NCBI GenBank assembly: GCA_031292255.1
Contig: JARLHN010000021.1
Span: 1 to 64,000 of the forward strand
DNA from: Oryzomonas sp.
GTDB taxonomy: Bacteria > Desulfobacterota > Desulfuromonadia > Geobacterales > Pseudopelobacteraceae
Direction: 5' to 3'
Length of the DNA stretch: 64,000 nt
Position numbers and translations under genes: made by a program. Numbering within the stretch: position 1 is the first letter of the stretch; each line of letters opens with the position of its first letter. Shown piece by piece: positions 45,828-59,078 of this stretch. The notes under the pieces are model-generated. The model saw only the letters and a list, made by a program, of their open reading frames with translations. It had not been told where the DNA came from and did no database searches.

Positions 45828-46754
45828 TCAGTGGGTGTGGCCGTGGTGGTGGGACGCGTGGCTCAGATCCCTGATAAACGGCCCGGCCAGACATGCGATG
45901 CACTCCACCTGCAAGGTGGTGTGGGTAATGTGGTAGCGGTCCAGGAGCATGTGCTCCACCGCGTGTATCACATCGGCCTGCTTCCATTTGAAGTCGTCGC
46001 TCACGTCCAGATGGGCGGAGAGCACCACGATATGGGAACAGATCGACCAAATGTTGAGATGGTGGATATCCTGGACCCCCGGAACATTGCGGATGCTCCC
46101 GGCGATCTCGTTCACCTTCATCCCGCGCGGCACCCCTTCCAGCAGGATATGGGTCGATTCCCGCAATACCCGCCAAGCCCCGAAGAAGACCACGAAGCCG
46201 ATGCCGATGGAGATGAGTGCATCGACCACATACCAATGGGAGAAGTATATGACCACCCCGCCGATGATGACGCCGACGGATGCGGCTGCGTCGCCGATGA
46301 CGTGCAGGAACGCGCTGTGCACGTTGAGATCGTCGTGGGAGTGCTGGTGAAGCGCCGACGCAGCGATAAGGTTCATCACCAGGCCGACCACCGCGATGAT
46401 GAACATGGGCAGGCTGTTGACCGGCTCCGGCTCCATCAGCCGCCCACTGGCCTCATAGAGGATGCCGAGCGCGATCAAAAAGATCGATACCCCGTTGATG
46501 AAGGAGGCGAACACCTCGGTGCGGTGCCAGCCAAAGGTGCGTGTTTCGGATGAAGGGAGCCCGGCCAGCTTGATGGCCCCCAGGGAAAGCAGCAGGGCGA
46601 ACAGGTCGAGAAACACATGGGCGGCATCGGACAAAAGGGCCAGGGAGTTGGTCCAGATGCCGCCGAAGACCTCGGCCACCAGGGTGACCACCGTGAGCAC
46701 GATGGCATAGGTAAACCGGGCGGCGATGCTCTTGTCGGGATTGTGCTCTTCCAT
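45828..46754 (-). CDS. cation diffusion facilitator (CDF) metal exporter
   Basis: The 308-residue inner-membrane protein has six predicted helices. Metal-site residues lie in ALLSDAAHVFLDLFALL near residue 40 and HVIGDAAASVGVIIGG near 150 (the HxxxD/DxxxD pairs of CDF proteins), and a cytoplasmic C-terminal domain follows. Its last residues are His-rich (HASHHHGHTH). It exports Zn2+, Co2+ or similar ions by proton exchange. ATG 46754 is chosen over 46883 because the family begins there. No ribosome site is seen, but a TATAGT lies 7 nt before the ATG. It diverges from the copper operon. Confidence 0.85.
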   Translation of the reverse strand: MEEHNPDKSIAARFTYAIVLTVVTLVAEVFGGIWTNSLALLSDAAHVFLDLFALLLSLGAIKLAGLPSSETRTFGWHRTEVFASFINGVSIFLIALGILYEASGRLMEPEPVNSLPMFIIAVVGLVMNLIAASALHQHSHDDLNVHSAFLHVIGDAAASVGVIIGGVVIYFSHWYVVDALISIGIGFVVFFGAWRVLRESTHILLEGVPRGMKVNEIAGSIRNVPGVQDIHHLNIWSICSHIVVLSAHLDVSDDFKWKQADVIHAVEHMLLDRYHITHTTLQVECIACLAGPFIRDLSHASHHHGHTH

Positions 46755-46847
46755 ATATTTTACTATAGCATGACTCTGGGCCACAAGCACCCATATCTCC
46801 ACCGTGGACCGCAAAACTTTTGGGACGGCACATCTCGAATCACTGTG

Positions 46848-46876
46848 GAATATTCTCCATCCGATGTCGGATATTC
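46848..46876 (+). promoter_or_regulatory. upstream activator site 1 (inverted repeat)
   Basis: GAATATTCTCC, 10 bp, then GGATATTC form a 29-bp imperfect palindrome. The same 29-bp layout recurs at 52103-52131. Both lie about 70 bp upstream of a sigma-54 promoter, so the NtrC-family regulator at 50469 is the likely binder. It also lies 94 bp upstream of the divergent CDF gene. Confidence 0.7.
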
Positions 46877-46951
46877 TTCGCACGCCACCTTAAACCAACA
46901 AAACCCCAACATAACCTGTTAATATTTATACAATAATCGATCTGATAATTA

Positions 46952-46967
46952 TGGCACGCTCCTTGAT
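46952..46967 (+). promoter_or_regulatory. sigma-54 promoter 1
   Basis: TGGCACG-CTCC-TTGAT matches the -24/-12 consensus TGGCACG-N4-TTGCW at all but one core base. It lies 73 bp upstream of the HMA-domain gene and presumably drives that gene and the sensor kinase. Confidence 0.78.
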
Positions 46968-47040
46968 ACCTGAACCGTGATACCTTCTCGGATTCAGGTG
47001 ATAATAAACAGGAGAGCATGAACAGCTCCCTGGAGAAGCC

Positions 47041-47478
47041 ATGCGAAAAAATTTCATCAACATCTCTTTGATCGTTATTGCAGCCGCCTTTCTGACGCTG
47101 CTCGCACTGCGGGGGCGGGCCGGGGCGGCCATTGACTCGGTGGCGGTCCTGAATACCGCGGGCATGGCCGGCAGAAGCTGCGCGGACAGGATCAACAAAA
47201 CTTTACAGGGCATCAAGGGCGTTGCCACGACCGAGGTGGACCTTGACCATGGCCGGGTCATCGTCGGGTACGACACCAGGACGGTCAAACCGGAAATACT
47301 GACGGAGAACGTCAAAAAGGCCGGGTTCGACAGCACGGTCCAGGAGGTCGTCACGCCCGAGCGATACCGGCAGGTCACCGGCAGGGATGTCGGCACGAGC
47401 GACGCTGCCCGACCGGGATGCTGCAGCGGGTGTAGAACGGACACCCAATCAGCTAATTCCAACCTTAAATCAAAATAA
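47041..47478 (+). CDS. secreted HMA-fold protein, degenerate metal site
   Basis: The 145-residue precursor has a signal peptide or N-terminal anchor (residues 7-30, ISLIVIAAAFLTLLALRG). A heavy-metal-associated domain of about 65 residues follows (ADRINKTLQGIKGVATTEVD ... ILTENVKKAGFD). The usual GMTCxxC is GMAGRSC, so only the second cysteine (about 47) remains. A C-terminal CCSGC offers an alternative thiol site. It may bind or sense Cu/Ag in the periplasm. GGAGAAG precedes the ATG. It is first behind the sigma-54 promoter and is followed by the sensor kinase gene. Confidence 0.72.
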   Translation: MRKNFINISLIVIAAAFLTLLALRGRAGAAIDSVAVLNTAGMAGRSCADRINKTLQGIKGVATTEVDLDHGRVIVGYDTRTVKPEILTENVKKAGFDSTVQEVVTPERYRQVTGRDVGTSDAARPGCCSGCRTDTQSANSNLKSK

Positions 47479-47559
47479 TTCACGAGCAGGTGCTCACCCG
47501 CTCAGTGAGAGACCGATTCCAGGTTTAACTTTCCCCGAGGTTGCGCTATATATGCTCCT

Positions 47560-48651
47560 ATGAAATCAACCATCCTTCGCACCGCCCTGTTGGGCATTTT
47601 CATCCTCGGCATCAGCCTGCTCCACTATCTGACACCGCTGCACCTCCACTACCTGCACGACATCTTCCAACGCTTCTACTACCTGCCGATCATCCTGGCG
47701 GCCCTCTGGTTCGGCTTCCGCGGCGGCCTGCTCTGTTCCCTGGTGGTCAGCATCGTCTACGCGCCCCACATCCTCTTCCAGTGGGGTGGCCAGTTGACCC
47801 TGGAGATGGAGAGATACCTGGAAATCGTCATGTATAACGTGGTCGGAGGCGTCACGGGGCTCCTGGCACAGCGTGAACGCGCCCGAAGCCTGGAACTCCA
47901 GCGGACCGCCCAGGGCCTGGAGGAGTCCTACAACAAGCTGCAAACCCAGTCGGAACGGATCATGGCCATCGAAGATCAGTTGCGGCGGGCAGAACGGCTC
48001 TCAACACTGGGGGAGATGGCGGCGGTACTGGCCCACGAGATCAGGAACCCGCTCGGCTCGATCCGAGGCACGGCCGAGATCCTGCGGGACGATTATCGGC
48101 CCGGCGACCCCAAGCACGAGTTCATCGAAATCCAGATTAAGGAAACAGAGCGGCTCAACCGGGTGGTGGAGGAGTTTCTGCGCATGGCGCGTCCCCAGCC
48201 GTCGGAGATGGGGCGCTGCTCATTGCGGGAAGAGTTGGAAACCATCGTCACCCTGACCTCCAACGATGCCAAAAACCGCAAGATCAAACTCACGCTGATA
48301 CCGCCGGCCGGCGATCCGGCCGTCAAGGCCGATGGCGAAAAGCTGCGCCAGGCGTTCCTGAATATCGTCATCAACGCCTTGCAGGCCACGCCGACGGGTG
48401 GCACCGTGACCATCGCCACCCAAAAGACGGACTCCCTGTACGAGATCCGCTTCAGCGATAGCGGGCCGGGGATCGAGGCCGACGCCCTTGCCAGGGTATT
48501 CGAGCCGTTTTTCACCACCAAGCCGGACGGCACCGGCCTGGGGCTGGCCATCACCCGGAAGATCATAGAGGCACACAACGGCACGCTGGAGATGGAGAGC
48601 GAACCCGGCAAGGGGACGACGGTCATTGTCAGGTTGCCCATATCAGAATAG
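47560..48651 (+). CDS. membrane sensor histidine kinase
   Basis: The 363-residue protein has three or four hydrophobic segments in residues 1-100 with very short external loops, and a coiled-coil linker (LELQRTAQGLEESYNKLQTQ). The HisKA phosphorylation site is VLAHEIRNPLGSIRG (His 159), followed by an HATPase domain with NIVINALQA, DSGPGIEAD and GTGLGLAI. The compact sensor suggests detection within the membrane rather than in a periplasmic domain. It should phosphorylate the NtrC-type regulator encoded 1.8 kb downstream; a MazEF module and gene debris intervene. The proposed signal is copper or silver. Confidence 0.85.
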   Translation: MKSTILRTALLGIFILGISLLHYLTPLHLHYLHDIFQRFYYLPIILAALWFGFRGGLLCSLVVSIVYAPHILFQWGGQLTLEMERYLEIVMYNVVGGVTGLLAQRERARSLELQRTAQGLEESYNKLQTQSERIMAIEDQLRRAERLSTLGEMAAVLAHEIRNPLGSIRGTAEILRDDYRPGDPKHEFIEIQIKETERLNRVVEEFLRMARPQPSEMGRCSLREELETIVTLTSNDAKNRKIKLTLIPPAGDPAVKADGEKLRQAFLNIVINALQATPTGGTVTIATQKTDSLYEIRFSDSGPGIEADALARVFEPFFTTKPDGTGLGLAITRKIIEAHNGTLEMESEPGKGTTVIVRLPISE

Positions 48652-48732
48652 TAGTTGCATCGACATGACAACAATTGTATCTTCAATGTAGATACAATCA
48701 CTTGCTAAGCTCTCTTCTGCCGCCACATGGTT

Positions 48733-48816
48733 CCCCCCTTTGAAAAGGGGGGGCAGGGGGGATTTGCATTTAAAGATCAAGGGCAAATCCCCCTGAATCC
48801 CCCTTTTCAAAGGGGG
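48733..48816. repeat. CCCCCTTT-type palindromic repeat
   Basis: CCCCCCTTTGAAAAGGGG lies at the left, and the right end CCCCCTTTTCAAAGGGGG is its inverted copy. Inner arms GGGGGGATTTGC / GCAAATCCCCC form one long hairpin of about 84 bp. It lies between the sensor kinase and mazE and could end the kinase transcript. Confidence 0.75.
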
Positions 48817-48870
48817 ACTTGATCGTTAGCGGAAGATCGCGTTAATCAGTTACAATTGTGGAGGTGCCGT

Positions 48871-49113
48871 ATGGAAGCACGGGTACAGAAATGGGGTCAC
48901 AGCTTGGCATTGCGCATCCCCAGCGCATTTGCGAAACACGCGCGGATGCAGCCGGGCAGCAGGGTGGATGTCTCCGAGGTCAAGGGAAAACTCGTAATCA
49001 CGATTCTTGAAGCCGATGAACCGACGTTGGAGATGCTGCTTGCAGAGGTCACGCCGGACAACATTCACCATGAAATCGCTACCGGCGTAGCTGTCGGTGA
49101 CGAAGCATGGTAG
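48871..49113 (+). CDS. mazE: MazE-type antitoxin (AbrB fold)
   Basis: The 80-residue protein has the swapped-hairpin AbrB/MazE DNA-binding motif at its N-terminus: VQKWGHSLALRIPSAFAKHARMQPGSRVDV. An acidic C-terminal tail (ILEADEPTLEMLLAEVTPDN) should wrap around and inhibit the toxin. It normally autoregulates its own operon. ATG 48871 has GGAGGTG in front. It overlaps mazF by 7 bp. The pair sits between the two halves of a two-component system and is probably an insertion. Confidence 0.88.
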   Translation: MEARVQKWGHSLALRIPSAFAKHARMQPGSRVDVSEVKGKLVITILEADEPTLEMLLAEVTPDNIHHEIATGVAVGDEAW

Positions 49114-49454
49114 CCAAAACAGGCTATGTCCCTGATCGGGGCGATATGGTCTGGCTCGCCTTTGATCCACAGTCCGGGCATGAGCAGGCAGGCAGGCGCC
49201 CGGCGTTTGTGTTGTCGCCGGCGTCGTACAACGGCAGAATAGGATTGGCCCTGTTCTGTCCCCTAACCAGCCAGATCAAGGGCTATCCCTTCGAAGTCCC
49301 AATTTCACCCGGATTGGCGGTGAGCGGTGTGGTCCTGTCCGATCAGATCAAAAGCCTTGATTGGAGGGCGCGTCAGGCCGAGTTTATTTGCAAGCTGCCG
49401 GAGGATGTGGCGGTGAAGGTGCTGAAACTGGTTGGGACGCTCTTGAAGGCGTGA
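49107..49454 (+). CDS. mazF: MazF-type endoribonuclease toxin
   Basis: The 115-residue toxin of the MazF/PemK family has the family start PDRGDMVWLAFDPQSGHEQAGRRPAFVLSP. The arginine pair after GHEQAG belongs to the RNA-cleaving site. SGVVLSDQIKSLDWRARQAEF near residue 75 holds the conserved Ser/Asp segment. It cleaves mRNA at short specific sequences when not bound by MazE. The length is normal and no frame damage is seen, so the module looks functional. The start overlaps mazE by 7 bp. Confidence 0.9.
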   Translation: MVAKTGYVPDRGDMVWLAFDPQSGHEQAGRRPAFVLSPASYNGRIGLALFCPLTSQIKGYPFEVPISPGLAVSGVVLSDQIKSLDWRARQAEFICKLPEDVAVKVLKLVGTLLKA

Positions 49455-49468
49455 GGAGATCCAAACTG

Positions 49469-49609
49469 ATGATGCCCGAAGAACTCGCTGAAACGCTTGA
49501 AGTCATGGCGGATGATGAACTTATGGCCTATTTGCGACAGGGTATCGCGGAGATGGAAACCGGCATGTTCGTCCCCTGGGAGGATGCCAAGCGGGAGCTT
49601 GGAATATGA
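49469..49609 (+). CDS. small antitoxin-like protein
   Basis: The 46-residue acidic frame reads MMPEELAETLEVMADDELMA, then YLRQGIAEMETGMFVPWEDA and KRELGI. The ending resembles the C-terminal toxin-binding tails of Phd/RelB-type antitoxins (..VPWEDAKRELG). No DNA-binding domain is present, so it may be a truncated antitoxin. GAGGAG precedes the ATG at slightly long spacing. It lies 14 bp behind mazF and could be co-transcribed. No second toxin gene follows, only disrupted AT-rich sequence. Confidence 0.5.
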   Translation: MMPEELAETLEVMADDELMAYLRQGIAEMETGMFVPWEDAKRELGI

Positions 49610-49804
49610 ATGTTCCAGTTAGGTAGATCACCGGTTTACGCTCGCATGCGCGTGAACTGCTCAATAACAAAGTTGAACAAAAACAAAGAGGAATGAAATG
49701 AATGACTGTATGTGACTTTCGCCGACTTGACACGCTAACGTTTGAATCTGCACGGAATTCAATACGACAATATTGTATTTTACCTGCCCCTTGGCTCTAC
49801 CAAT

Positions 49805-50398
49805 ATGACAGATACTTCTGAACAATTCGCAAAACAGCAACACCAAAAAATAGATTGTTAGAATTGCTGGAAATAGTTCGCGGCAGTGGTTGGGCGATGA
49901 ATCGGAAAGGCCAGTGTGCTCATATCTCAAATGAAATTAGAAGTGGAAGAATTTCAATCGAAGAAATTCATTATTTTTGGAATGCTATTGACTCGCTCCA
50001 CGATTTAGAACTTCGAGACTTAATAAACGCGAATCATGAACAACTCATACAAATCGAACTCACCTTCGACCGCATCCGAAACAACCTCCGTACGTGGCAT
50101 TCTAGCTCAGATAGCCTGTGTTTCTTGACTAAAGTAATCCTTATGTTCAATTGGGGACAATCTCCAGCTTTTGACACACGAATCCGGGACATGTTGAAGG
50201 TCAAAAATAATATTTCAAGCAAGAACCTTTGTCACCGCACTTAAGGAAATTGGTAGCTGGATACAGATATTTGAATCTAAGTACAGCATAAAACTTGACG
50301 AATTGGCAACCAACGAGATGAATTCACTAAATGAGTTTAGGGCGCTTAGGCCACTTCCTCTCGGAAGAAGCTTTGATATGATGCTATTTTCATTGTGA
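49805..50398 (+). pseudogene. frameshifted AT-rich gene of unknown function
   Basis: Three adjoining frames appear to be one gene of about 197 codons. ATG 49805 reads MTDTSEQFAKQQHQK; the frame then shifts by one base at a run of six A (near 49846) to NRLLELLEIVRGSGW... It shifts back near a run of five A (about 50205) into ARTFVTALKEIGSWIQIFES... and ends at the stop 50396-50398. Base composition is much richer in AT than its neighbours, which suggests foreign origin. I recognise no domain. Homopolymer sequencing error is an alternative to real decay. Confidence 0.55.
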
Positions 50399-50468
50399 AA
50401 TTTTCAACCAGGCGTAACAGCGGTGATGCCTCTGTGCTCTCAGCCGTTCACCTCCGAACAGGACTGCC

Positions 50469-51833
<1,365 letters not shown>

Positions 51834-51851
51834 ACCTAATAAAAGCATTTG

Positions 51852-52070
51852 CACCACAAAAGCACAAAGAACACGAAGGAAAATCAGTTAGCTGCCTTAC
51901 CAAATTCATTCACCAATTTGGTTCGAGTCTTTATTTTCATAAGCGTTTGAATTTCTTTGTGCCCTTTGTGTCTTTGTGGTGATTAACTGCCCTTTTAAGG
52001 TTAAAAGCCTGAGTTGTGTTTTCTCTCTTTTGATTTTCCTCTGAGTTTCTGTGTCTCTGCGGCAGGTTAA
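51852..52070. repeat. CACAAAG-type inverted repeat region
   Basis: CACCACAAAAGCACAAAGAA near the left is mirrored by TTCTTTGTGCCCTTTGTG and TCTTTGTGGTG near 51954-51982. A second block, TTTCTGTGTCTCTGCGGCAG, follows at about 52046. I recall similar CACAAAG repeats from many unrelated bacterial genomes. It fills the spacer between the regulator gene and the cus promoter and holds no convincing gene. Confidence 0.6.
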
Positions 52071-52102
52071 TCTTTTGTGATTTGACTCTTTCAATTTCTG
52101 GA

Positions 52103-52131
52103 GAATATGCTCCCACCCCTGTAGGATATTC
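52103..52131 (+). promoter_or_regulatory. upstream activator site 2 (inverted repeat)
   Basis: GAATATGCTCC, 10 bp, then GGATATTC; it has exactly the length and layout of the site at 46848. Its right half is identical to that site's and the left half differs at one base. It ends 67 bp before the sigma-54 promoter of cusC. Confidence 0.72.
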
Positions 52132-52198
52132 TACAATTCTTTTCTGCCCCATTCTGTACTTCGCAAACAATCGTTGTATAATCGGCATATTGCATCGT

Positions 52199-52214
52199 TG
52201 GCACACCCCTTGAT
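52199..52214 (+). promoter_or_regulatory. sigma-54 promoter 2 (cus operon)
   Basis: TGGCACA-CCCC-TTGAT keeps the -24 GG and near-consensus spacing and shares the unusual TTGAT with promoter 1. It lies 42 bp upstream of the cusC ATG. Confidence 0.75.
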
Positions 52215-52256
52215 ATAGCTTCTCGCATGACCACGAACCGACACCGAGGCATCATT

Positions 52257-53564
52257 ATGAAAACCTGCATCGTTTTTCTTGCCCTGCTCGTCGCAGGCAT
52301 CCTTCCGGCAGGCTTCAGCTGGGCCGTTGAGACCAAGCCGACTGAGAATCTCCCTGAATTGGTGAACATCGCCCTGGCGAACAATCCCGAGGTCGCGGCA
52401 TCCGGGGCGCACTTCAGGATGCTTGAATACAAGGCCCAGCAGGCCGGCAGCCTGGAAGACCCGATGCTGATGCTGAAGATCCAGAACGGCATCATCAGCG
52501 ATCCGCTCAATTTCAGACGCGACCCCATGACCCAGAAGGTCGTGGGCATCAGCCAGCAACTCCCCTGGTTCGGCAAACGCGACCTCCGCAGCGAAGTGGC
52601 GCGGCACGACGCCGAGGCTTCCCACTGGAATCGGGAGGAGCGCATCCTGGACGTCATCCGTGGGGTCAAGGAAACCTACTACCAGATCTACTTCACCGAC
52701 AAATCTCTGGAGATCCTTGCCAAGAACACCCGCATCCTGGACGACTTCATCACCATTGCCGAAAACCGCTACGCGGTCGGCCAAGGGGTCCAGCAGGACA
52801 TCTTCAAGGCCCAGCTCGAAAAATCAAAGCTGATCGATATGCGCATCACCCTGGACCAACAACGGCGCAGCCTGGAAATCAGGATGAACAGCCTTCTCTA
52901 CCGTCCCGCGGATACCCCGATCGGTGCCATCCCCGACCCGCGGATCACCCCTCTCACCCGTAGCGATACGGAATTGCTGGAGCAGGCCGAGCAAAACCGA
53001 CCGCTCCTTCAGGGGATGCAGGCCCAAATCGGCAAGAGCCAAGCGGCCCAGGCCCTGGCCCGCAAGGAGTTCTTTCCCGACTTCACCGTCTCCTTCGAGT
53101 ACATGCAACGGGAACCGACCCCGGGGAGCGACGGCGCTGACATGTACAGCCTTGGGGTCACCTTCAACCTGCCGGTGCAGCGGGAGCGCCGCCACGCCAT
53201 GCTGGCCGAGGCGGCCTCGGAACAGACCATGTCCACGGCGGAACTGAACGACGCCCGGAATGCCATCCGCAGCACCATCGCCGACCTGATCTCCCAGATG
53301 GAACGCCGCCGGAAGCTGGCCGAGCTGTACAAGGGAGGCATCATCCCCCAGGCCGAGCAGGCCCTGGAATCGGCGGTCATTGCCTACAGGGCGGGCAAGG
53401 TGGATTTCCTGGCCCTTTTGGACAGCCGGCTGACGCTTTTCAACTACGAGCGGGACTACTACGATTCCCTGGCCGATTACCAGATCCGGCTGGCCCAGTT
53501 GGAGGCCACGGTGGGGGCCGACCTGGAAAGCGGACATTCCCTGGCAAACCACGACCATCATTAG
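52257..53564 (+). CDS. cusC: TolC-family outer membrane channel of copper/silver efflux
   Basis: The 435-residue precursor has a signal peptide (KTCIVFLALLVAGILPAGFSWA). Two outer-membrane efflux repeats of long helices and strands follow; typical phrases are ISQQLPWFGKRDLRSEVARHDAEA and SLGVTFNLPVQRERRHAMLAEAA. It forms the trimeric exit duct for the CusBA pump. The C-terminus is His-rich (SLANHDHH). ATG 52257 opens the signal peptide and has GAGG before it; the longer frame from 52227 is not used. It is the first gene after the sigma-54 promoter. CzcC-type is an alternative name, but CusA chemistry favours Cu/Ag. Confidence 0.85.
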   Translation: MKTCIVFLALLVAGILPAGFSWAVETKPTENLPELVNIALANNPEVAASGAHFRMLEYKAQQAGSLEDPMLMLKIQNGIISDPLNFRRDPMTQKVVGISQQLPWFGKRDLRSEVARHDAEASHWNREERILDVIRGVKETYYQIYFTDKSLEILAKNTRILDDFITIAENRYAVGQGVQQDIFKAQLEKSKLIDMRITLDQQRRSLEIRMNSLLYRPADTPIGAIPDPRITPLTRSDTELLEQAEQNRPLLQGMQAQIGKSQAAQALARKEFFPDFTVSFEYMQREPTPGSDGADMYSLGVTFNLPVQRERRHAMLAEAASEQTMSTAELNDARNAIRSTIADLISQMERRRKLAELYKGGIIPQAEQALESAVIAYRAGKVDFLALLDSRLTLFNYERDYYDSLADYQIRLAQLEATVGADLESGHSLANHDHH

Positions 53565-53599: not shown

Positions 53600-53790
53600 C
53601 CTCTCCCCTAGAGAGGAGGGTTAGGGTGGGGGGGAAGTTGCCATGGAATGGGCATATTGCAGCTTCGCCCACCCCCTGGCCCCCTCCCGTCAAGGGAGGG
53701 GGACTTTCCGAACGATTTAATGTTACAGAGTACCAGGCACAAGATCCTCTCTCCCCGCGAGAGAGGAACCCTAACGAGGAAAGGTGCTCC
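53600..53790. repeat. cluster of CCCCTCC palindromes between cusC and cusB
   Basis: Three GC-rich inverted repeats follow one another: CCTCTCCCCTAGAGAGG (53600), CCCCCTCCCGTCAAGGGAGG (53681) and CTCTCTCCCCGCGAGAGAGG (53755). The first two are in opposite orientation. The last ends just before the cusB ribosome site. They fill the whole 228-bp spacer; no gene is present. Confidence 0.7.
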
Positions 53791-53792
53791 AC

Positions 53793-55187
53793 ATGGCCTT
53801 GAACAAGAAGATCGCACTCCCCATGGTCATTCTGGTCCTTGCCGTCGTCGTTGCCAGTTGGCTTTACAGAAGCGGCAAGATGAGCAAGGTGAGCGGCTGG
53901 TTCAAAAGCGACGGCACCGCCAAACAGGAACTGAGCGCCAAACCGGTCTACACCTGCCCCATGCACCCCTTCATCATCAAGGACAAGCCGGGGGTCTGCC
54001 CGATCTGCGGCATGGAGCTGATCAAGAAGCTTAACGACGCCCAGACCGCTGCACCCCAGACGCCGGAGCAGAAGCAGCAGGCCGCGATGCTCGGCCATGT
54101 TGCCCTTTCGCCGACCCAGCGGGTGATGGCCAATGTTGCCACGGCCGAGGCAAGGCAGGAGGACCTGAACAGGGAGATCAACGCCGTGGGCATCGTCCAG
54201 TACGACCAGTCGCGCCAGGCCAAGGTAACTGCCTGGATCGCCGGACGCATCGACAAACTGCACGTCAGCGCGGTCGGCGACTACGTCGGCAGGAACAGGC
54301 CGGTGGCCGAGGTCTATTCGCCCGACCTCCTGGCCTCTCAACAGGAATACCTGCTGGCAATCAAAAGCCGCGAACAACTGAAGGACTCGCCGATCCCCTC
54401 CATCGCCCAAAACGGCGAGGGGTTGGTGCAGTCGGCCAAACAGCGCCTGATGCTCTTCGGGGTCAAGGAGAGCCAGATCGCTCAATTGGAGAAGGCCGGC
54501 AAACCCAACATCCGCCTGCCGATCTACACCCCACTGTCGGGCGTGGTCATCGAAAAGATGGTCCAGCAGGGGCAGTACGTCAACACGGGCGACGTATTGT
54601 TCAACATCGCCGACCTCTCCCGGGTATGGGTCGAGATCGAGGTCTACGAAAACGAATTCCCCAACATAAGGATCGGGCAACGGGTGGAGATCCAGTCCCA
54701 GTCTTTCCCCGGCAAGCCCTTCAGCGGCCGGATCGCCTTCATCTATCCCTTTCTCGACCCCAAGACCAGGACGGTCAAGGCGCGTGTGGAGATGGCCAAC
54801 CCCGGTTTGAAGCTCAAACCGGACATGTTCGTACGGGCGTCGGTCAAGGTAGCGTTGGGCAAAACCATCGTAGTGCCGGTCACGGCGGTGATGGATACCG
54901 GCAAGCGCCAAGTGGCCTGGGTCGAGACCTCGCCCGGCATGTTCGAGCCGCGGGACGTGCAGCTCGGCCAGCGCACCGACGACAGGGTGCAGGTCCTGTC
55001 CGGCCTGAAACCTGGGGACAAAGTGGCGGTCTCCGGCGCCTACCTGATCGACTCGGAATCCCAGCTCAAGGGAGGCGGCGGCCATGAAAACATGCCCGGC
55101 ATGAAGATGGACGGGCAGAAGCCCGCGCCGGCGGCACCGGCTCCGGCCAAGAAGGATACGCTGAAGATGGATGATATGAAGATGTAG
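53793..55187 (+). CDS. cusB: periplasmic adaptor of the copper/silver efflux pump
   Basis: The 464-residue membrane-fusion protein has an N-terminal anchor (IALPMVILVLAVVVASWLY). A heavy-metal-binding domain, YTCPMHPFIIKDKPGVCPIC-GMEL, occupies residues 53-76. The hairpin/lipoyl and beta-barrel domains follow (GRIDKLHVSAVGDYVGRNRP; YTPLSGVVIEKMVQQGQYV). The C-terminal tail is rich in Met, Lys and His (ENMPGMKMDGQ...MDDMKM). It links CusA to CusC and passes Cu+/Ag+ to the pump. ATG 53793 has AAAGGTG in front and is preferred to the GTG at 53784. Confidence 0.88.
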   Translation: MALNKKIALPMVILVLAVVVASWLYRSGKMSKVSGWFKSDGTAKQELSAKPVYTCPMHPFIIKDKPGVCPICGMELIKKLNDAQTAAPQTPEQKQQAAMLGHVALSPTQRVMANVATAEARQEDLNREINAVGIVQYDQSRQAKVTAWIAGRIDKLHVSAVGDYVGRNRPVAEVYSPDLLASQQEYLLAIKSREQLKDSPIPSIAQNGEGLVQSAKQRLMLFGVKESQIAQLEKAGKPNIRLPIYTPLSGVVIEKMVQQGQYVNTGDVLFNIADLSRVWVEIEVYENEFPNIRIGQRVEIQSQSFPGKPFSGRIAFIYPFLDPKTRTVKARVEMANPGLKLKPDMFVRASVKVALGKTIVVPVTAVMDTGKRQVAWVETSPGMFEPRDVQLGQRTDDRVQVLSGLKPGDKVAVSGAYLIDSESQLKGGGGHENMPGMKMDGQKPAPAAPAPAKKDTLKMDDMKM

Positions 55188-55190
55188 GAT

Positions 55191-55284
55191 TCCACCCCCC
55201 AACCCCCTCCTTATCAAGGAGGGGGAGCGCAAAAATCCCCATGAGACATCTCCCCTCCTGGATTAGGAGGGGTCGGGGGTGGTT
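55191..55284. repeat. CCCCTCC palindromes between cusB and cusA
   Basis: CCCCCTCCTTATCAAGGAGG and CCCCTCCTGGATTAGGAGGG, 50 bp apart, form two hairpins in the 112-bp spacer. They are of the same type as the repeats at 53600 and 18365. Confidence 0.7.
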
Positions 55285-55299
55285 GAAAGGTTTGGCCCC

Positions 55300-58200
55300 A
55301 TGATAGAGAGAATCATCGAATACTCCGCCAGGAACCGCGTCATCGTCCTGATGATTTTTGCCCTGATCATCGCCGCCGGGGTCTGGTCGGTCTATAAGAC
55401 CCCGGTGGATGCCATCCCGGACCTGTCCGACAACCAGGTGATCGTGTTCACCGACTATCCCGGCCGTTCGCCCCAGGTGGTGGAGGACCAGGTCACCTAT
55501 CCCCTGGCGGTCAACCTGCAAGGCCTGCCCCAGGTCAAGGCCGTGCGCGCCTCGTCGGCCTTCGGCTTCTCCATGATCTACGTGATTTTCGAGGATAAGG
55601 CCGACATTTACTGGGCCCGCACCCGTGTCCTGGAGCGCCTTAACTACGCCGCATCCCTGCTCCCCCCCGGCGTGGTGCCGACCCTCGGCCCGGACGGCAC
55701 CGGCGTTGGGCATGTGTTCTGGTACACCATCGAGGGCAAGGGATACGACCTGGAGCAACTCCGGACACTTCAGGACTGGTTCGTGCGCTACCAGTTGAAC
55801 ACCGTGCAGGGTGTGGCCGAGGTGGCCTCCATAGGCGGCATGGTGCGGGAGTACCAGATCGACCTGGACCCCAACAAGCTTCTTGCCTACAACATCAAGG
55901 TGAGCCAGGTGATGGAGGCGGTCAAACGTTCCAACAACGACGTCGGGGGGAGGCTGATAGAGCAGGCCGACGCCGAATACCTGATCCGCGGCCAGGGGTA
56001 CGTGAAGTCCGGGACCGACCTGGAGAACGTCGTGGTGGGCGCGGACATGCGCGGCACGCCGATCTACGTCAGGAACCTGGGCACGGTCCAGATGGGGGGT
56101 GCCATCCGGCGCGGCCTTCTGGACATGAACGGCGAGGGGGAGGCCGTGGGCGGCATCGTGGTGATGCGCTACGGCGAGAACGCCAAGGATGTCATCGACC
56201 GGGTCAAGGTCAAGATCAAGGACCTGGAGAAGGGGTTGCCGCCGGGCGTGAAGATCATGGTCTCCTATGACCGCTCCGACCTGATCGAACGGGCCATCGA
56301 CACCTTGAAACATAACCTGGTGGAGGAATCGGTCGTTGTCTCGCTGGTGATTCTGGTGTTCCTGCTCCACTTCCAGAGCGCCCTGGTGATTGTGCTGACC
56401 CTGCCTATCTCGGTGCTGATCGCCTTCATCACCATGAAGCTGATGGGGGTCACCTCCAACATCATGTCGTTAGGGGGCATCGCCATCGCCATCGGCGTGC
56501 TGGTGGACGCCGGGGTGATCATGGTGGAGAACTGCTATCGCCACCTGTCGGAGATGCCGCCGGAAGAACGCAAGGAAAAGCAGTTGGAGGTGATCATCAC
56601 CAGTGCCAAGCAGGTCGGCCGGGCGATCTTCTTCTCCCTGGCGATCATCGTGCTCTCCTTTGTGCCGGTCTTCATGCTTGAGGGACAGGAGGGGAAGCTG
56701 TTTCATCCATTGGCCTTCACCAAGACCTTCTCCATGATGGGCTCGGCCATGATCGCCATCACCTTGGTGCCGGTACTGATGTACTACTTAATGCGGGGCA
56801 AGATGCCGCCGGAAAGTTCCAACCCGGTGTCCACCTTCTTCATAAAATTATATTCGCCGGTCATCCACTGGGTGCTGGTTTGGAAAAAGACCACTATTGC
56901 ACTGAATATCGTGGCCCTGTTGATTGCCGTGCCGCTCTTCATGCACTTGGGCAGCGAGTTCATGCCGCCTCTGGATGAGGGTTCGCTGCTTTACATGCCG
57001 GTCACCCTGCCCAACGTTTCCATTACCGAGGCCAAGCGACTGATACAGATGCAGGATACGATCATCAAGAGCGTGCCCGAGGTTGAGCATGTTCTCGGCA
57101 AGGTAGGCCGGGCCGAAACCTCCACCGATCCGGCGCCGGTCTCCATGTTCGAGACCATCATTATCCTCAAACCCAAAGACAAATGGCGACCAGGCATAAA
57201 AAAGGCCGACATCGTGGCCGAACTGGACAGCAAGCTGCAACAGATCGGCGTGCGCAACGGCTGGACCCAACCGATCATCAACCGCATCAATATGCTCTCC
57301 ACCGGGGTGCGCACCGACCTGGGCGTCAAGATCTTTGGAAATGACCTGAACGTGCTTAAAGATCTCGCGATTCAGACCGAGGCGATCTTGAAACCGATCA
57401 AGGGCGCAGCCGACGTGGTAGCTGAACGTGTCACCGGCGGCAACTACATCGACATCGACATCGATCGTGAGGCGGCCGCCCGTTATGGCGTTAATGTTGG
57501 CGACATCCAGGATGTCATCGAGACCGCCCTGGGGGGCGCAATGCTGTCCACCACGGTTGAAGGGAGGAACCGCTTCCCGATCCGCATCCGCTACCTGCGC
57601 GACTACCGCGACAATATTCCGGCCATCCGCAGGATCCTGGTGGCTGGTACGGAGGGTGCCCAGGTGCCGCTCTCACTGGTGACGAAGCTGAAAATATCCA
57701 CCGGCGCACCGGAGATCAACAGCGAAGGGGGACTCCTGCGTTCGCTGGTTTTTCTTAACGTCCGTGGCCGGGACATGGGTGGCTTTGTGACCGAGGCCAA
57801 ACAGGTCCTGGAGAAGCAGCTCAAGCTGCCGCCGGGCTACTACGTGGCCTGGTCGGGGCAATGGGAGAACCAGATCCGCGCCAAGGCCCGCCTGCAGATA
57901 CTGGTACCGATAGGAATAGTGATCATCTTCATCCTGCTCTACTTCACCTTCCATTCGGCCTTGGAGGCCAGCATGGTCATGCTCTCGGTCCCCTTTGCCC
58001 TGATAGGCGGAGTCTACCTGGTTTCCGCCCTGGGCTACAACCTCTCGGTTGCGGTATGGGTGGGCTTCATCGCCCTGTACGGCATCGCCGTGGAAACCGG
58101 GGTGGTGATGGTCATCTATCTCCATGAAGCCCTGGACAGGAAGCTGATCAACGGCCCCTGTACGGAGCAAGACATCTACGACGCCACCTTCGAGGGTGCC

Positions 58201-58437
58201 GTGCTGCGGTTGCGGCCCAAGCTGATGACCGTGGCCGTTGCCCTCCTGGGCCTGGTGCCGATCATGTGGTCCACCGGCACGGGGGCCGATGTGATGAAAC
58301 CGATTGCCGCCCCCATGATCGGCGGCATGATCTCTTCGGCGGTGCACGTACTGATCATGACGCCGGTGATCTTCGTGCTGATGAAAAAACGGGAGTTGAG
58401 GAAGGGGACCTTGAAGTATTCGGGGATGAAACACTAA
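55300..58437 (+). CDS. cusA: RND copper/silver efflux pump
   Basis: The 1045-residue heavy-metal RND transporter has twelve expected helices and two large periplasmic loops (residues about 35-335 and 560-860). Three methionines known to line the CusA metal path are present and correctly spaced: LLYMP (Met566), APVSMFE (Met616) and RINMLSTG (Met665), 50 and 49 residues apart as in E. coli CusA. This favours Cu+/Ag+ over Zn/Co. The proton-relay helix reads GVLVDAGVIMVENCYRHL. ATG 55300 follows AAAGG; the frame extends to a GTG at 55279. It is the last pump gene of cusCBA. Confidence 0.9.
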   Translation: MIERIIEYSARNRVIVLMIFALIIAAGVWSVYKTPVDAIPDLSDNQVIVFTDYPGRSPQVVEDQVTYPLAVNLQGLPQVKAVRASSAFGFSMIYVIFEDKADIYWARTRVLERLNYAASLLPPGVVPTLGPDGTGVGHVFWYTIEGKGYDLEQLRTLQDWFVRYQLNTVQGVAEVASIGGMVREYQIDLDPNKLLAYNIKVSQVMEAVKRSNNDVGGRLIEQADAEYLIRGQGYVKSGTDLENVVVGADMRGTPIYVRNLGTVQMGGAIRRGLLDMNGEGEAVGGIVVMRYGENAKDVIDRVKVKIKDLEKGLPPGVKIMVSYDRSDLIERAIDTLKHNLVEESVVVSLVILVFLLHFQSALVIVLTLPISVLIAFITMKLMGVTSNIMSLGGIAIAIGVLVDAGVIMVENCYRHLSEMPPEERKEKQLEVIITSAKQVGRAIFFSLAIIVLSFVPVFMLEGQEGKLFHPLAFTKTFSMMGSAMIAITLVPVLMYYLMRGKMPPESSNPVSTFFIKLYSPVIHWVLVWKKTTIALNIVALLIAVPLFMHLGSEFMPPLDEGSLLYMPVTLPNVSITEAKRLIQMQDTIIKSVPEVEHVLGKVGRAETSTDPAPVSMFETIIILKPKDKWRPGIKKADIVAELDSKLQQIGVRNGWTQPIINRINMLSTGVRTDLGVKIFGNDLNVLKDLAIQTEAILKPIKGAADVVAERVTGGNYIDIDIDREAAARYGVNVGDIQDVIETALGGAMLSTTVEGRNRFPIRIRYLRDYRDNIPAIRRILVAGTEGAQVPLSLVTKLKISTGAPEINSEGGLLRSLVFLNVRGRDMGGFVTEAKQVLEKQLKLPPGYYVAWSGQWENQIRAKARLQILVPIGIVIIFILLYFTFHSALEASMVMLSVPFALIGGVYLVSALGYNLSVAVWVGFIALYGIAVETGVVMVIYLHEALDRKLINGPCTEQDIYDATFEGAVLRLRPKLMTVAVALLGLVPIMWSTGTGADVMKPIAAPMIGGMISSAVHVLIMTPVIFVLMKKRELRKGTLKYSGMKH

Positions 58438-58604: not shown

Positions 58605-59078
58605 ATGAAGAAACTGGCACTGATTATCGCGGCAACGACACTGGCCCTTTCGGCCCCGGCGGCATTCGCGGCCGACAATGAAGGTCATGACCACGGCTCC
58701 ATGGACATGGGGCACGGCGACCATTCCATGATGTCCATGGGTAAAGTGGCCCATGAAGAGGTCGTGGACGGAATCAAGGCAACCTTCAATGTCATCGACA
58801 TCCAGCATAAGATGAAGGAGATGGGAATGAAGGAAACTCATCATATCATGGTGATGTTCACAGACGCCAGGACGGGAAAAATGATGAGCGGCGGTATAGT
58901 AAAGATCAAGGTCATGGGGCCGGATAAATCCGAACAGGTCAAGGACCTGATGGGCATGGAAGGGGGATTCGGTTCCGATTTCACCCTGCCGAAGAAGGGC
59001 AAATACGGCGTGTTGTGCAAATTCAAGCTGGCGGACGGCAAGGTACGCAACGCCAAGTTCTGGTATACGGTGAAATAG
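58605..59078 (+). CDS. Met/His-rich periplasmic protein, probable Cu/Ag binder
   Basis: The 157-residue precursor has a Sec signal peptide (MKKLALIIAATTLALSAPAAFA). The mature N-terminus is extremely rich in His and Met (EGHDHGSMDMGHGDHSMMSM), followed by a small beta-type domain (DGIKATFNVIDIQHKMKEMG ... GKYGVLCKFKLADGKVRNAKFW). Met/His clusters of this kind bind Cu+ or Ag+ in the periplasm. It lies directly behind cusCBA and could deliver metal to CusB, as CusF does in enterobacteria, although it shows no CusF OB-fold signature. GGAG precedes the ATG, and a strong terminator follows. Confidence 0.65.
   Translation: MKKLALIIAATTLALSAPAAFAADNEGHDHGSMDMGHGDHSMMSMGKVAHEEVVDGIKATFNVIDIQHKMKEMGMKETHHIMVMFTDARTGKMMSGGIVKIKVMGPDKSEQVKDLMGMEGGFGSDFTLPKKGKYGVLCKFKLADGKVRNAKFWYTVK

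Follow-up and report, generated by a model that had tools for sequence, protein, structure and literature searches.

A 64,000-nucleotide stretch of an Oryzomonas sp. genome (GenBank assembly GCA_031292255.1, contig JARLHN010000021.1, positions 1 to 64,000 of the forward strand; hereafter the window) carries genes for a CusCBA-like efflux pump, a sensor kinase and an NtrC-family response regulator, together with two sigma-54-type promoters that are each preceded by a twin-dyad element. Sequence comparison brings out this element, its link to a sigma-54 box, its recurrence before cusC, the HMA/kinase genes and the gene of a 157-residue protein that we call F157, the helical steps of its spacing, its co-occurrence with the regulator, and a methionine triad in the pump. 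We consider it highly probable that the locus represents a sigma-54-controlled efflux regulon of the copper/silver type, in which, by our prediction, two dimers of the regulator from 50469-51833 would bind the twin dyads and reach the -24/-12 boxes by looping. The features of the locus are as follows (PWM, position weight matrix; HTH, helix-turn-helix).

46844..46859, plus strand: predicted enhancer of the HMA operon, dyad unit 1, TGTGGAATATTCTCCA, unit PWM score 24.1
46865..46880, plus strand: the same enhancer, dyad unit 2, TGTCGGATATTCTTCG, unit PWM score 16.3, 21 bp after unit 1; element E = 8.2e-5
46952..46967, plus strand: sigma-54 -24/-12 box of the HMA promoter, TGGCACGCTCCTTGAT, exact, 71 bases after unit 2
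47041..47478, plus strand: secreted-type HMA-domain protein (PF00403)
47560..48651, plus strand: sensor histidine kinase (HisKA/HATPase_c; 42 homologues aligned), its short N-terminus probably embedded in the membrane
50469..51833, plus strand: NtrC-family response regulator (receiver, AAA+ domain with GAFTGA, Fis-type HTH)
52099..52114, plus strand: predicted enhancer of cusCBA, dyad unit 1, TGGAGAATATGCTCCC, unit PWM score 17.9
52120..52135, plus strand: the same enhancer, dyad unit 2, TGTAGGATATTCTACA, unit PWM score 23.1, 21 bp after unit 1; element E = 9.7e-7
52199..52214, plus strand: sigma-54 -24/-12 box of the cusC promoter, TGGCACACCCCTTGAT, exact, 63 bases after unit 2
52227..53564, plus strand: CusC-like outer-membrane factor (PF02321)
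53784..55187, plus strand: CusB-like adaptor with a heavy-metal-binding domain (PF16576, PF19335)
55279..58437, plus strand: CusA-like HME-RND pump with Met573, Met623 and Met672 (TIGR00914; alignment to E. coli CusA 3k07)
58605..59078, plus strand: F157, a secreted-type His/Met-rich protein of 157 residues (no Pfam match)

The first-pass annotation of this DNA had described two identical 29-bp inverted repeats, each forming an activator site upstream of a box with an unusual TTGAT. The sites and boxes are real and far above chance, whereas their identity and their single-dyad structure did not hold. The pattern GAATATNCTCC-N10-GGATATTC is present exactly at 46848-46876 and 52103-52131, both boxes are copies of TGGCAC-N5-TTGAT, and the distances of 75 and 67 bases from 29-mer to box are as claimed; the two 29-mers agree at 23 of their 29 positions. 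When 48 of 49 sites were aligned in a common orientation (the omitted site had a box offset of 34), conservation was found to extend outside the 29 bp, with a TG 4 and 3 bases to the left (T 0.83, G 0.96) and a CA 3 and 4 bases to the right (C 0.92, A 0.90). Since these conserved flanks are palindromic, we conclude from the alignment, which adds 46 further sites to the two of the window, that the 29 bp are the inner part of two tandem 16-bp palindromes of the form TGNAGAATATTCTNCA, set 21 bp apart from unit to unit, and that these are the true element. Such a tandem arrangement is as would be expected for two activator dimers.

The element is rare in its own surroundings. Even with up to three mismatches the pattern has no further place in the window (shuffled sequences average 0.01), and the exact 29-mer pattern has no further match in the genome from which the window comes (G000; 3.72 Mb in 44 contigs, 88% complete). 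With a PWM built from 40 sites of other genera the window sites rank first, at 36.6 and 31.6, the next place scoring 6.3, and a whole-element model of 37 positions, built without the window's genus, places only these two sites of the own genome below E = 0.001 (9.7e-7 for cusCBA, 8.2e-5 for HMA). Agreement with the palindrome also goes along with a nearby sigma-54-like box. Both window sites fit GAATATNC-N13-GNATATTC at 14 of 14 fixed positions, and of 22 sites that do so, 21 have a sigma-54-like box at a distance of 20-110 bases, as do 19 of 25 sites matching at 13 positions and 9 of 14 matching at 12; of 20000 random positions, 1011 have such a box.

That two promoters define the regulon, as had been stated, may be too narrow a count, real as both are. 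The near-matches of the own genome at two or three mismatches have no sigma-54-like box in place, and the match on C44 (E = 0.017, better than that on C24) and the two on C42 likewise have none and were treated as chance. The place at C24:42009-42039 (E = 0.066) combines one good dyad (18.2) with a poor one (1.4), has a box, TGGCATGATGAATGCT, 52 bases on, and precedes the gene of a 119-residue secreted-type protein whose relative in L225 has the full element; because of this box and this relative we retain it as a possible, weak third promoter. As a separate observation, 37 viral contigs (L288-L324) contain an exact copy of the perfect unit TGTAGAATATTCTACA.

Loci around 65 regulator orthologue matches and 15 further motif places were fetched, and the geometry of the promoters was read from fetched loci. 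From 102 sources (the window, L234, L151-L230 and L267-L286) we obtained 106 readings of promoters that have two units and a box, pairs without a box and exact repeats of one promoter being left out; they correspond to 104 distinct promoters, as one HMA promoter each in L179 and L207 was read twice. The two units are spaced 20, 21 or 22 bp apart in 103 readings, and the gap between unit 2 and the box falls, likewise in 103 of 106, into four clusters, 50-54 (49 readings), 61-65 (27), 74-78 (21) and 83-86 (6), whose limits were set after inspection of the data and whose members are related by descent and hence not independent. These clusters lie about one helical turn apart. A uniform null equalled the observed periodicity in none of 5000 trials, and all 25 promoters from 20 loci of families that supplied no training sites fall within the clusters. 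Each class of gene keeps to particular gaps, 52-54 or 62-65 before cusC, 50-54 or 61-63 before F157 and mostly 74-77 or 84-86 before HMA, and jumps of about one turn within a class are the pattern expected if an activator must be turned towards the polymerase over a short loop of DNA. The dinucleotide at -12 follows the class of gene as well, being GC in 35 of 36 F157 promoters, GA in 19 of 23 HMA promoters and GA or GT in 25 of 27 cusC promoters, which suggests promoter strengths tuned within one regulon. The TTGAT of the window is thus not unusual: -12 boxes without GC are common among the relatives, with GC in 2 of 27 cusC and 0 of 23 HMA promoters. A scan of 46750-52300 for sigma-70 promoters found 4, compared with 3.4 in shuffled sequence.

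Downstream of the 106 readings lie F157 (36), cusC (27), HMA (23), a second small His-rich protein (4), the kinase (3), the regulator (2) and the 119-residue protein (1), and 10 precede no identified gene; in many relatives the F157 gene has a twin-dyad promoter of its own. The operon of the relative L152 runs HMA, an FtrD-like protein (PF10080), an FtsX/MacB-type permease, an ABC ATPase, kinase, regulator, cusCBA and F157, and L267 has the same set without kinase and regulator. The module of FtrD-like protein, permease and ATPase that follows the HMA gene was located at L152:10534-12993, L267:5338-7809 and L075:7059-9835.

The pump of the window is a member of the CusA/CzcA family (TIGR00914, 1179.9 bits against a cut-off of 701.45), and alignment to 3k07 places its methionine triad at M573, M623 and M672 of E. 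coli CusA, which we take to be metal ligands there. These residues are kept in every locus of at least 80% identity that reaches them (36, 34 and 32 loci, at least one contig being counted twice) and in the distant pumps of L076 and L077; a remote RND protein of L120, 24% identical, has no such triad. No CusF domain was found by Pfam among the ten window proteins scanned.

The kinase was aligned with 42 of 120 listed homologues. Residues His22, His33, Cys59 and His70 are invariant in the 43 aligned kinases and in 56 taken from the window and the fetched loci. The AlphaFold model (mean pLDDT 73.7, pTM 0.47) suggests, with moderate confidence, helices at 2-24, 30-39, 41-74 and from 80 onward and a kinase without a sizeable periplasmic domain; it is too weak to position the histidine and cysteine residues, and that these four residues bind metal is a guess. 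Pfam detects neither a recognisable metal-binding domain nor HAMP in the kinase, and a search of the own genome at E <= 1 returned no second copy of its N-terminus.

The lack of a metal-binding domain in the kinase leaves some room for a regulon that answers to another signal, such as zinc or other divalent metals or membrane or redox stress, the Cus-like pump being one of its outputs. Such a view could also draw on a cation diffusion facilitator gene (45828-46754, minus strand) that is divergent from the HMA promoter and whose nearest NCBIfam model is ZitB, below its cut-off, and on the FtrD-like and FtsX/ABC genes in the operon of relatives, to which no role is assigned. We nevertheless regard it as unlikely, given that Met573, Met623 and Met672 are kept in close relatives and in L076 and L077 alike, and that the HMA protein, the His/Met-rich F157 and the heavy-metal-binding domain of CusB fit the handling of copper or silver.

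The regulator has a receiver domain (PF00072, residues 5-112) with Asp53, presumably the phospho-acceptor by family knowledge, an AAA+ sigma-54 activation domain (PF00158, 143-310) with GAFTGA at residue 218, and a Fis-type HTH (PF02954, HTH_8, 406-447) whose recognition segment reads VPRHTLIYR; Pfam thus finds HTH_8 and a sigma-54 domain instead of the winged helix of OmpR-type regulators. Its orthologues form a clearly separate group of at least 69% identity, none of the next matches listed exceeding 51%. Searched with at most two mismatches, the motif is present in 52 of the 76 genomes of the family, compared with 1 of 76 for a reversed control pattern, and across the order 107 of 141 genomes, from 27 of 29 genera, have the element (E <= 0.01) and 114 of 141 the regulator (E <= 1e-150). 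In the family, where counts were tallied by hand as they were within genus g7, the element is present in 55 of 61 genomes with the regulator and in 1 of 15 without (p = 7.7e-10). The training sites were taken mostly from the neighbourhood of regulator orthologues, which makes this comparison partly circular, and families that supplied none were therefore counted separately: in three such families the element accompanies the regulator in 47 of 55 genomes and occurs in 4 of 10 without it (p = 0.005). The comparison hence agrees with the earlier proposal in linking an NtrC-type response regulator to the sites and to the apparent sigma-54-type promoters of the cus and sensor operons. Five genomes of the family (G002, G012, G021, G032 and G056) hold two copies of the regulator orthologue each.

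The association extends beyond the order. Among 80 further loci from a scan of named genomes, examined for recognition helix and element, five regulators (L071, L072, L074, L075 and L077) have "PRH" in the recognition helix, and only these five loci carry a two-unit element. L071 and L072 are contigs already in our set (L187 and L205) and so are not new evidence; the three new regulators are 54% (L074), 51% (L075) and 48% (L077) identical to that of the window. In L077, from the Calditrichia, a perfect TGTAGAATATTCTACA stands upstream of a small open reading frame and cusCBA, with a box, TGGCACGGCAATTGAC, 118 bases on. In L075, from the Deltaproteobacteria, the element stands before an operon that encodes HMA-like and FtrD-like proteins, a permease and an ATPase, and a 9/12 box follows at 120 bases; in L074 it precedes the regulator gene itself, with a 12/12 box at a gap of 85. 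No element was found in L073 (59% identity) and L076 (50%), whose regulators do not have PRH.

The regulator has 13 matches at E <= 1e-100 in the own genome, counting itself, so that other activators exist, and one could argue that a different factor, such as another enhancer-binding protein, occupies the element while the adjacent regulator is a bystander; the weak sites in 4 of 10 genomes that belong to other families and lack the regulator would fit such an argument. We think this improbable, since element and regulator are absent together even inside one genus (in g7 the element is present in 3 of 5 genomes with the regulator and 0 of 10 without, p = 0.022), since the element is also found with distant regulators whose recognition helix has PRH, and since in one member of the order, a single-contig genome (L267, L286), the cus operon has the sites although it lies about 560 kb from the regulator, which argues against mere adjacency as the source of the link. 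Still more improbable is that the 29 bp form one extended inverted repeat bound by a single regulator dimer, a structure that both window sites do satisfy at 14 of 14 positions but that we discarded on the flank alignment, with its palindromic conservation on both sides, and to which are opposed an extra unit at the same 21-bp step in three loci (L208, L179 and, weakly, L198) and the frequent spacing of 20 or 22 in HMA promoters, whose still recognisable 16-mers are incompatible with a single rigid dyad.

We therefore return to a regulator that acts from twin dyads on sigma-54 promoters. Cu(I) or Ag(I) would alter the state of the membrane kinase encoded at 47560-48651, which would phosphorylate the regulator at Asp53; phosphorylated dimers would then occupy both dyads and assemble an AAA+ ring, loop onto the sigma-54 polymerase waiting at the -24/-12 boxes and, through their GAFTGA loops, open two promoters, that of cusCBA, with its box 63 bases from unit 2, and that of the HMA-kinase operon, with its box at 71 bases.

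Several observations weigh against this model. The pump is the main ground for naming copper or silver as the metal. The regulator occurs without the element, at the threshold used, in 6 of 61 genomes of the family and 8 of 55 others, and the element without the regulator in 1 of 15 and 4 of 10; the latter four (G090, G091, G093 and G137) have weak matches and no regulator at E <= 1e-150, and a more distant regulator may serve them. Three gaps, 68, 70 and 71, fall outside the clusters, whose post hoc limits and common descent were mentioned above, and the last is that of the window's HMA promoter; the gaps of about 120 in L075 and 118 in L077, which are not among the 106 readings, lie outside as well, and the units of L074 are spaced by 23. 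Finally, a box scoring at least 9/12 is lacking within range at 10 of the 116 two-unit places, of which one is cut by a contig end.

The sensor side of the locus is altered in this genome. Protein alignments were drawn from L151-L215, leaving out sequences with internal stops, those shorter than 64% of the query and those below 60% identity (kinase, regulator) or 30% (others). In the 23-sequence alignment of the HMA protein the metal motif is GMAGRSC in the window and G[M/I]TCxSC in 22 of 22 relatives, so that the first cysteine of the CxxC is lost. The HMA gap of 71 compares with 75-76 in L151-L153, the three genus relatives whose HMA promoter could be scored, and the FtrD-like, permease and ATPase genes are missing between HMA and kinase, as they are in the genus relative L151; the best match in the own genome, an incomplete assembly, to the L152 permease, the only one of the three proteins searched, is 28% identical. 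An insert of about 1.8 kb parts kinase from regulator, which lie 0.4 kb apart in L151, adjacent in L152, 0.9 kb apart in L153 and 2.2 kb apart in L154. Two features were noted in this insert.

48734..48816, no strand assigned: inverted repeat of 34 nt (hairpin), 85% complementary and rich in C/G runs, which looks like a small inserted repeat element
48871..49454, plus strand: MazE/PemK-like (MazEF-like) toxin-antitoxin pair (PF04014, PF02452)

Given the missing operon genes, the lost cysteine, the gap of 71 and the separation of kinase from regulator, it seems likely that the sensor side is decaying or rewired in this genome, while the cusC promoter is typical. The arm of self-regulation that the first-pass annotation had included is accordingly weaker here than it had claimed, and its interpretation as a whole is supported in part. 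With promoter and operon apparently in part eroded on the sensor side, it is the cusCBA arm that would be expected to work normally.

In enterobacteria the cus genes are under an OmpR-type regulator (CusSR) and sigma-70 promoters, and two-component control covers pump and sensor. The E. coli CusSR-cusCFBA system resembles the locus described here in its homologous pump with the same methionine triad and in two-component control of pump and sensor; it differs in that the window has an NtrC-type regulator with a Fis-type HTH, promoters of sigma-54 appearance and no CusF among the ten proteins scanned. The idea of a different control scheme is thus borne out relative to CusSR, yet sigma-54 copper control as such was already reported: the CorSR pair of Myxococcus xanthus, a two-component system for copper, has a regulator of the sigma-54 type and putative sigma-54 promoters (PMC3707914), and judging from the sequences the twin-dyad, regulator-linked circuit is a variant on this precedent. 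The two have in common a regulator with receiver, sigma-54 activation domain and Fis HTH, and sensor genes within the target operon. CorS is described as having a periplasmic sensor and HAMP (PMC3707914), whereas the kinase of the window has no HAMP match and no large loop is predicted for it, and the curA operon of CorSR comprises a multicopper oxidase and a P-type ATPase, whereas the window has genes for HMA, kinase, regulator, CusCBA and F157. The terms "binding site" and "inverted repeat" are absent from the main text of PMC3707914.

ZraSR is known for sigma-54 control of metal stress (PMC12316311). ZraSR and AtoSC are among the nearest NCBIfam models for our kinase and regulator, but the scores are far below the cut-offs (ZraR 386.9 of 760, AtoC 477.1 of 714 and ZraS 224.2 of 479 bits) and the targets are others. 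Sigma-54 studies in Geobacter sulfurreducens (PMC2725144) and Desulfovibrio vulgaris (PMC4641369, PMC3333781) deal with the same class of promoter in related bacteria. The main text of the first has none of the terms efflux, copper and heavy metal, that of the second neither efflux nor heavy metal, and that of the third neither copper nor heavy metal, with efflux in its reference list only. The second, PMC4641369, also states that efforts to delete rpoN from G. sulfurreducens reportedly failed. In the open-licence literature, supplements aside, we found no copper or silver control circuit described for these metal-reducing bacteria.

What survives the comparison is a twin-dyad enhancer that is apparently linked to the regulator, is phased with the helix and has a wider set of targets, and one of the two promoters of the window may be losing its function. 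We further offer, tentatively and as somewhat short of an even bet, a broader history, in which an ancient sigma-54 copper/silver regulon would span the Geobacter order and be recognisable in the Calditrichia and other Deltaproteobacteria. It would have a dedicated PRH lineage of regulators, twin dyads locked to one face of the helix within the order, a membrane-buried sensor with the invariant His22, His33, Cys59 and His70, and a Cus pump coupled to the module of HMA, FtrD-like and FtsX/ABC proteins, and the lineage of the window would have dropped this module and be losing the matching promoter arm. The comparison defines an operator precisely, together with a lineage of regulators and a list of targets, and the roughly one hundred related promoters, in which the distance from enhancer to box steps by about one helical turn, constitute a natural experiment on enhancer geometry.

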